Assembly (NCBI GenBank): GCA_014378085.1
Contig: JACMOJ010000338.1
Span: 1-5,837 of the forward strand
DNA length: 5,837 bases
Direction of reading: 5' to 3'
From: Burkholderiales bacterium
GTDB lineage: Bacteria; Pseudomonadota; Gammaproteobacteria; Burkholderiales; Usitatibacteraceae
Positions 5,001 through 5,837 of the stretch are shown here, piece after piece; positions within the stretch are counted from its first letter, which is position 1, and each line of letters begins with the position of its first letter. The notes below the pieces were generated by a model, which did not search any database, had not been told where the DNA came from, and worked only from the letters and a program-made list of their open reading frames with translations. Position numbers and translations under genes: made by a program.

Positions 5001-5837
5001 CGCAGATACTCGATGACGCGGTGGTGGGCGAAGCGGCGCGTGAGGTGTTTGCCAACGCGCAGAAGATGCTCGACAAAATTATCAAAGGCAAATGGTTGCA
5101 AGCCAACGCCGTGTTTGGTCTGTGGCCTGCGAACAGCGTTGGTGATTCGGTCGAAGTCTATGCGGACGACACGCGTACGACCGTGCTGCACACCTTCCAT
5201 CATCTGCGCCAGCAAAACGAAAAGCCGGCGGGCAACGCGAATCAATGCCTCGCGGACTTCATCGCGCCGAGGGTTTTGGCCCCCTCTCCCCAACCCTCTC
5301 CCGCAGGGGGAGAGGGGGTACATCACGACTACCTCGGCGGCTTCGCTGTCACTGCCGGTATCGGCTGCGACGAGCGTGCGAAAGCATTTGAAGCGGCGAA
5401 TGACGATTACAGCGCCATCATGTTGAAGGCGCTAGCGGATCGGCTCGCCGAAGCCTTTGCCGAATACCTGCATGCCCGCATGCGTCGCGACGAGTGGGGA
5501 TATGAGAAAACTGCGGCAAAAGACGAAATCCTAAACGTGGACGAGTTGATCGCAGAAAAATACGTCGGTATTCGTCCGGCGCCCGGTTATCCGGCGTGTC
5601 CGGAGCATTCGGAGAAGACCCCGCTTTTTCACCTGTTGGACGCTACCAAACGTGCAGGCATCACACTCACTGATTCGTACGCTATGTGGCCGACTGCAGC
5701 TGTATCGGGCTTTTACTATTCACATCCGCAGTCGCAGTATTTTGCGGTCGGCAAAATCGACAAAGACCAAGTCGAGGATTACGCCAAGCGCAAGGGTTGG
5801 AGTATCCCCATGGCGGAGCGTTGGTTGGCACCGAATC
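2033..5837 (+). CDS. metH: Cobalamin-dependent methionine synthase (5-methyltetrahydrofolate-homocysteine methyltransferase), 3' end cut
   Basis: MetH transfers the methyl group of 5-methyl-THF to homocysteine via methylcobalamin, giving methionine and THF in the cytoplasm. The frame holds 1268 residues to the window edge and lacks only the last few (E. coli MetH is 1227 long and ends shortly after the same WLAPN). Domains in order: homocysteine-binding barrel (about 9-340) with zinc ligands C262 (GFNC) and C325-C326 (GGCCGTT); pterin barrel (about 371-640) opening FVNVGERTNVTGS; cap domain (about 675-773); Rossmann B12 domain with DVHDIG (H788 is the lower cobalt ligand) and LSGLITPS (S833, S839); reactivation domain from about 926 with the AdoMet-binding motif RPAPGYPAC. 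All key residues are present. Start: ATG 2033 has a weak GGA 8 bases upstream; ATG 2024 (in frame, no Shine-Dalgarno) and ATG 2078 (directly before the conserved ILVLDGAMGT) are alternatives. The frame has no stop for some distance upstream, so the start is not fixed by one. Oddity: a palindromic repeat is embedded at residues about 1083-1096. Confidence 0.97.
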   Translation, partial: MDSAISDRPARTAALMEALAQRILVLDGAMGTMIQRYKLSEAEYRGTRFADWKSDLRGNNDLLTLTKPDVIREIHGEYLAAGADILETNTFNSTSISMADYHMESLAYELNLEGAKLGREVADAFSAKTPHKPRFVAGVLGPMNRTLSLSPDVNDPGFRAVNFDQVKDAYREATRGLIQGGADIILIETIFDTLNAKAAIFAVEEEFEALGIAGAGNENARLPIMISGTITDASGRTLSGQVVEAFYNSVRHANPISIGFNCALGAKELRPHVEELARIADCRVSAHPNAGLPNAMAEYDELPAETAAFIREWAEAGWLNITGGCCGTTPQHIKAIADIVQSSKPRGFGNSMPAIEKRLRLSGLEALNIGDDSLFVNVGERTNVTGSRAFAKLILNDDYNAALTVARQQVENGAQIIDINMDEAMLDSQAAMVKFLNLIASEPDISRVPIMIDSSKWSVIEAGLKCVQGKSIVNSISMKEGIPQFIEAAKLCRRYGAAVIVMAFDEKGQADTYERKIEICARSYKILTEQVGFPAEDIIFDPNVFAVATGIEEHATYGTDFIRATEWIRKNLPFAKVSGGVSNVSFSFRGNEPVREAIHTAFLYHAGRVGMTMGIVNAGQLGVYDDIPKDLLERVEDVLFNRSVGGDETPTDRLVTFAEQFKGQKKDQVEDLAWRETTVEARLSHALVKGITQYIVEDTEECRAKVAAAGGRPINVIEGPLMDGMNVVGDLFGAGKMFLPQVVKSARVMKQAVAHLVPYIEEEKRLMGAENSRAKGKIVMATVKGDVHDIGKNIVGVVMQCNNYEVVDLGVMVPAEKILAAAIEHKADIIGLSGLITPSLEEMAHFAKEMQRLGFTIPLLIGGATTSRTHTAVKIEPHYKGPVVWVPDASRAVGVCTNLLSDDLRDNYVAVVRDDYVKVREQHANKKGVKLVSLEAARANATAIDWATYVPPKPQYLGVKELKNFPIEQLVPYIDWSPFFQTWDLWGKYPQILDDAVVGEAAREVFANAQKMLDKIIKGKWLQANAVFGLWPANSVGDSVEVYADDTRTTVLHTFHHLRQQNEKPAGNANQCLADFIAPRVLAPSPQPSPAGGEGVHHDYLGGFAVTAGIGCDERAKAFEAANDDYSAIMLKALADRLAEAFAEYLHARMRRDEWGYEKTAAKDEILNVDELIAEKYVGIRPAPGYPACPEHSEKTPLFHLLDATKRAGITLTDSYAMWPTAAVSGFYYSHPQSQYFAVGKIDKDQVEDYAKRKGWSIPMAERWLAPN
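5280..5318 (+). repeat. Interspersed palindromic (REP-like) element inside the metH reading frame
   Basis: Perfect 12-base inverted arms CCCCCTCTCCCC (5280-5291) and GGGGAGAGGGGG (5307-5318) flank a 15-base centre. The centre holds a second CCCTCTCCC (5294-5302), which can pair alternatively with the same right arm (5308-5316, 5-base loop). From general knowledge, this CCCTCTCCC-AACCCTCTCCC-GC-AGGGGGAGAGGG pattern is a short interspersed repeat found many times, normally between genes, in various proteobacteria; its translations give peptides such as PLPNPLPQGERG. Here it is read in the metH frame as APSPQPSPAGGEGV. It lies between conserved CLADFIAPR and DYLGGFAVT, where E. coli MetH has, as I recall, only about five residues against 18 here. 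No target duplication is visible at its borders. Confidence 0.85.

Follow-up and report, generated by a model that had tools for sequence, protein, structure and literature searches.

The analyzed stretch of DNA, in the following called the window, has a length of 5837 nt. Besides metH, the gene for the cobalamin-dependent methionine synthase, it includes an ABC ATPase gene and the last part of a gene for a serine dehydratase, two assignments made by eye. The 3′ end of metH is located outside of the window, and position 2024 is one possible start of the gene. No riboswitch or other known RNA was found in the window at E values of up to 0.5. Upstream of the ABC ATPase gene, an ORF between positions 771 and 1112 seems to consist of the start of a membrane fusion protein and the end of an FtsX-type permease, as judged by eye, and looks like a decayed export operon. 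The ABC ATPase gene starts within three tandem copies of CGTATATGAG (1104 to 1133). The features of metH and of the element inside this gene are as follows.

2024..5836, plus strand: metH, open frame with PDB matches 9ssp (21-1270) and 3bul (675-1271)
4820..5836, plus strand: MetH reactivation (AdoMet-binding) domain, from the match to 1msk/6bdy and the AlphaFold model
5270..5326, plus strand: 19-codon loop RVLAPSPQPSPAGGEGVHH replacing the usual loop of 4 to 6 residues, from the loop lengths in 80 relatives and the DNA of occupied and empty sites
5280..5318, no strand assigned: 39-nt element with perfect 12-nt inverted arms and no stop codon in any of the six frames, from the sequence
5282..5316, minus strand: exact TMECO/BoxC intrastrand-triplex motif CCCTCTCCC-CCTGC-GGGAGAGGG-TTG-GGGAGAGGG, from the pattern given in PMC4666352
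5308..5316, minus strand: C-rich stem of the triplex motif, from the pattern match
5294..5302, minus strand: first G-rich stem of the triplex motif, from the pattern match
5282..5290, minus strand: second G-rich segment (third strand) of the triplex motif, from the pattern match

The arms of the element, CCCCCTCTCCCC (5280 to 5291) and GGGGAGAGGGGG (5307 to 5318), are complementary at 12 of 12 positions and separated by a spacer of 15 nt. The window has a single occurrence of the arm pattern, which none of 200 dinucleotide shuffles produced. A first-pass annotation had described an intergenic-type repeat with perfect 12-base arms that is read in frame and tolerated, and this description agrees with the arms, the maintained frame, and the homology on both flanks: the metH frame continues without interruption past the insert into DYLGGFAVT, and the alignment with E. 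coli MetH (3bul) covers both flanks of the loop and shows a gap opposite to it. The inverted arms of the palindrome were correctly recognized, but a further CCCTCTCCC in the spacer (5294 to 5302) had been overlooked, and due to this additional segment the element is a triplex motif and not a plain palindrome. The claim that 18 residues replace about five was right with respect to the enlargement of the loop but not to its length, which is 19 codons (5270 to 5326). The corresponding loop was measured at 80 MetH loci of genomes and comprises 6 residues in 65 cases, 4 in 7, and 8 in 3, with loops of 1, 5, 10, and 15 residues at one locus each, the 15-residue value (L045) being unusable because the measurement crossed a duplicated stretch. 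With 6 or 4 residues in the relatives, the net gain in the MetH of the window is 13 to 15 residues.

The family of the element was determined with the TMECO repeats (earlier BoxC or PIT), which are described as purine-motif intrastrand triplexes (Holder et al. 2015, PMC4666352). The test pattern taken from PMC4666352 was CCCTCNCCC N3-6 GGGNGAGGG N3 GGGNGAGGG. The minus strand of the window matches it exactly between positions 5282 and 5316, and the pattern did not arise in any of 300 dinucleotide-shuffled versions of the window. Judged by this pattern, the metH element is a member of the BoxC/TMECO triplex repeat class. TMECO repeats are reported with 3610 copies in 262 proteobacterial genomes, and oligonucleotides of the E. 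coli element fold into a triplex according to CD and NMR data (PMC4666352). As with these multi-copy proteobacterial repeats, pattern, length, and minus-strand layout are the same in the metH element. All 23 copies in MG1655 are reported as intergenic (PMC4666352), whereas the metH copy is located in frame in an ORF; intergenic location is reported for the MG1655 copies but does not belong to the sequence definition. The table of Cozzuto et al. 2008 (PMC2267715) gives no genic/intergenic letter for the E. coli BoxC, so that, as far as this table goes, BoxC is not classed as intergenic there. A GTAG/CGTC tag of REP sequences is not present beside the stem of the metH element: the bases adjoining the arms are TTTTGG and TACATC, and the nearest GTAG on the minus strand falls into conserved metH sequence outside of the insert.

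Copies in related genomes and in other genes

The best match to the MetH region of the window was found in the genome G098, and the family of G098 was taken as that of the window. Of 28 genomes of this family, 10 contain the exact motif, and a reversed-pattern control gave 0 hits. There are 16 copies in G420, and none in G098, G213, and G243. A looser arm pattern was present in four of ten relatives reached via their MetH loci, G002 and G004 among those with copies. The copies in G004 are mostly plain hairpins, whereas G002 possesses many with the same layout as in the window, some of them with 1 mismatch in 35 nt. The first-pass view of the insert as an intergenic-type repeat is supported: its family can be named (BoxC/TMECO), and a near-identical repeat is multi-copy in the relative G002. 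The looser pattern was absent from six searched relatives, five of them from the family of G098, and the own metH element of G098 is a single copy in that genome when up to 3 mismatches are allowed. The closest kin therefore give no case for a resident multi-copy status.

In G002, 29 sites were placed in 24 fetched stretches, which represent 30 pattern matches, two of them overlapping. At 12 of the 29 sites, the element is part of a gene, in frame, and homology is present on either side of it; one further site is a probable case. The 16 sites outside of these 13 are not necessarily intergenic. The in-gene copies of G002 are in the following proteins.

WaaF: split 229/269 versus 1psw
MetE, cobalamin-independent methionine synthase (L176:3-2153:-): element residues 213-223 opposite gaps versus 1u1h
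BioA: split 304/334 versus 3dod
Mpl: split 154/188 versus 3eag
LeuS: split 291/335 versus 6q89
TrpC: split 151/185 versus 6y88
MmeI-like enzyme: element between two C-terminal domains
HypF: element between domains
HsdR: two in-frame sites
HrpA: two in-frame sites
AddB-like protein (L184): probable in-gene copy, with profile homology downstream of the element only and below the family cut-off

A LipS1-like protein of G002 has another site in its C-terminal tail, and two sites are just upstream of a holC-like and a thiE-like gene, as judged by eye. The family of G098 contains at least three further in-gene copies according to inspection and Pfam/NCBIfam matches, in AcnD of G420 and in HsdR-type proteins of G382 and G425. 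All 13 in-gene copies of G002 are open in six frames compared to 7 of the 16 other copies (p 0.0012), but this contrast was not relied on because p rises to 0.07 when seven near-identical TAG-variant copies are counted as one, and to 0.09 when the AddB-like case is moved, too.

An association with RAYT (Y1_Tnp) genes has been published for GTAG REPs. In the first four genomes, Y1 genes were present in the two that are rich in arm copies and absent from the two that are poor in them, which is suggestive. Among the 28 genomes, 8 of 10 with the motif and 15 of 18 without it possess Y1, and no arm octamers were found within about 1.5 kb, or up to the contig end, of the eight Y1_Tnp (PF01797) loci viewed (4 of 11 matches in G002 and 4 of 5 in G004). 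No clear link between Y1 transposases and the repeat results from these data.

Recurrence of inserts in the same loops

Among the best 120 protein matches to the reactivation region, 14 carry repeat-like inserts at the same loop, namely P0001 to P0004, the near-copies P0006 to P0010, P0017, P0029, P0047, P0048, and P0057. The loops were extracted with a regular expression, and ten rows missed by it were scored by eye. A second search, again with an insert in the query, added 27 proteins, with repeat-like inserts in P0121 and P0123, while the 22-residue loop of P0137 does not resemble these repeats. The resulting 16 of 147 proteins are not a frequency because the queries of both searches hold an insert. 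Both the share of inserts and their in-frame status are in part an effect of ascertainment by insert-holding queries and the return of open frames. Aligning MetH from relatives had been proposed as a check of the insert, and it showed that the case of the window is not isolated, because inserts of this type are found at this loop in other MetH proteins, too.

A tree of 55 MetH rows, 12 of them with an insert, was calculated with the loop excluded; P0121 and P0123 are absent from the trees. The insert trait requires 10 changes on this tree, at least 7 of them forced by well-supported branches, and some of the changes could be losses. Shuffled labels gave a mean of 11 changes, and 140 of 500 shuffles were as low as 10. 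A single clade for the inserts was rejected with a p-AU of 4.7e-5 in a subset of 23 rows, which was selected after the 55-row tree had been seen. For the window and P0001 alone, one clade was not rejected (p 0.099). The loop of G098 is that of P0001, and the row nearest to the window, P0020 (VGTP), has an empty loop.

The MetH loops of G213, G243, and G422 are without an insert. In an order-wide sample of 399 genomes, 344 of which matched, 30 loops were fetched, and those of G098 and G175 were long. Nine stretches had been picked mostly for their long-looking matches; eight of these loops have 4 to 11 residues without a repeat, and that of G175 has 28. The DNA of long inserts is available from the window, G098 (L116), and G175 (L127); the other inserts are known as peptides. 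Window and G098 contain different elements in opposite orientation in the same MetH loop. The insert of G098 was rejected as a strict triplex motif, with an 8-nt stem and 2 mismatches in total. The 28 residues of G175 (L127/L153) are encoded by an element of another kind, in which an inverted-arm stretch is enclosed by a 17-nt direct repeat, and a search of this insert with the triplex pattern gave no match.

For three loops of the helicase HrpA, a comparison was made across the G002 family (22 genomes, each represented by one row), with both flanks found in 13, 16, and 16 genomes, respectively. The repeat is present in loop 1 in 5 of 13 genomes (in G021 partially) and in loop 2 in 2 of 16, and loop 3 is occupied in 7 of 16, in G019 by a different repeat family. 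Empty loops 1, 2, and 3 have 0 to 9, 3, and 7 to 8 residues, and G015 has an unrelated loop 1 of 21 residues. The HrpA of G002 (L192, ORF 3-3893) carries five triplex-type repeats in the three loops at residues 183-212, 773-785, and 903-934. The other repeat family in loop 3 of G019 (L226) encodes the peptide TPPFEKEGPGG ... SPLTPLFQRGE. In HsdR of G002 (L191:1320-4193:-) and G382 (L206:1278-3035:-), a repeat is located at the same place near the C terminus, as judged by eye.

Precedents, origin, and meaning of the insert

Palindromes inside genes are not new because in-frame GTAG/CGTC REPs have been published in many genes as “REP-decorated proteins” (Di Nocera et al. 2013, PMC3733652). In the recB genes of two Xanthomonas, REP inserts are reported at about the same site, and many intragenic REP inserts are dimers or groups that encode 20 to 30 residues (PMC3733652). 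Like these REPs, the metH element is a short palindromic repeat in frame in a conserved gene; unlike the REPs as described there, it has no tag but a third, triplex-forming segment, and the same loop is reused in many lineages. Rickettsia palindromic elements (Ogata et al. 2000; Claverie and Ogata 2003), which the first-pass annotation had named as a precedent, are a fair analogy since these palindromic repeats are likewise translated in frame in unrelated genes, although host group and repeat are others and the comparison concerns the mode of insertion. The ERIC/RU repeats of enterobacteria (Delihas 2007, PMC2759123), intergenic-type elements of 103 to 168 bp, are also described as being fused in frame and read as peptide; they are likened here by insertion mode. 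A further, different repeat with which the case was compared is Cod-2, from the publication that also tabulates BoxC (Cozzuto et al. 2008, PMC2267715). In the open-access literature without supplements, no report was found of a triplex-class repeat in frame in genes or of one loop filled repeatedly across lineages by repeats, and five peptide strings gave no match in open-access literature. New here is the presence of another repeat class, the triplex class, in genes and the repeated use of the same loops.

The insert in metH probably originated from a BoxC/TMECO-type repeat that reached a tolerant surface loop of the reactivation domain by a jump or by copying, with survivors of such events piling up in the same loops. 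An insertion with a net length that is a multiple of three would leave the gene open and add a Pro/Gly-rich, disordered peptide; the gene would stay open because the metH copy has no stop in six frames. Harmful insertions elsewhere in the protein would be lost by selection, so that the survivors would be concentrated in the same loops. Different lineages and different repeat families would fill one loop independently, and the MetH loop would be able to absorb about 10 to 44 extra residues (insert loops of 15 to 48 compared to 4 to 6 residues). Mobility would drive insertion, selection would act as a filter, and the peptide may be neutral. Passive toleration of six-frame-open repeats in disordered surface loops is the most likely situation.

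An accumulation in the same loops might also be caused by the insertion machinery itself if it prefers a target DNA or structure, which would make the MetH and HrpA loops true hot spots. That one residue position in MetH, three HrpA loops, and the HsdR place in G002 and G382 (by eye) were used repeatedly would fit to such a preference. This site-selective insertion is nevertheless unlikely: the same loops are occupied by different repeat families in both orientations, empty sites have no motif in common when compared by eye only, and the length of the MetH loop varies between 1 and 15 residues, with the L045 value included, even without such repeats. An origin on the spot, by slippage growth or as a chance low-complexity stretch instead of a mobile repeat, would explain the Pro/Gly-rich peptide and the absence of the arm pattern from six relatives, but hardly an exact match of 35 nt to a family pattern that is present in 10 of 28 genomes of the G098 family and in none with the reversed control, so that this origin is extremely improbable.

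The insert may be used, either as a peptide that tunes reactivation by AdoMet and flavodoxin or as an mRNA or DNA structure that pauses ribosomes or polymerase. Both possibilities, altered reactivation and stalling, had been raised in the first-pass annotation, and neither found support. The AlphaFold model of the reactivation domain (339 residues) has a mean pLDDT of 88.5 and its top PDB matches in the E. coli reactivation domain (6bdy and 6bm5, TM 0.90 by query length), and the insert appears in it as a low-confidence coil without regular structure (pLDDT about 66) between confident flanking blocks of 93 and 95. The insert is scattered on the MetH tree, with 10 changes close to the shuffled mean of 11, its sequence and length vary among close relatives, three of which have no insert, and the same repeat class occurs in unrelated genes. 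An RNA hairpin of about -31 kcal/mol and the primer-extension band of the E. coli element, interpreted as a polymerase stop in PMC4666352, speak for a used structure. The fold is ordinary for its base composition, with 12 of 200 shuffles equal or better (z -1.69), and the in vivo DMS footprint reported in PMC4666352 was without protection. Altogether, a use of the insert is very unlikely, and the stalling claim depended on this fold energy.

A repeat class that has been studied as intergenic, structure-forming, and destabilizing DNA is read here as part of core enzymes. Close relatives with occupied and with empty versions of a loop form a natural experiment on the movement of the repeat, on tolerant positions in proteins, and on the possible cost of a triplex-forming stretch in a transcribed metabolic gene. 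As a more speculative and rather doubtful extension, betaproteobacterial triplex repeats may be a coding-compatible mobile element, with “landing loops” in MetH, HrpA (three loops), and HsdR that are recolonized by different families via targeting or selection for loop extension. This would mean that many copies are six-frame-open and that a large share of the surviving copies is located in genes.

Some copies of the repeat in G002 are part of longer sequences. Those in L169, L173, L174, L175, L177, L178, L189, and L190 belong to a longer composite unit that contains two triplex motifs and is near-identical among them. These copies have mostly CTAG between the arms and stops in two frames, and none of them was seen in a gene named in this text. 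In several copies (e.g., L172, L184, L185, and L192), a conserved sequence of about 20 to 30 nt (AGCGCCTTTC.CGTTTGC) precedes the C-rich stem, which indicates that the full element may exceed the triplex motif.
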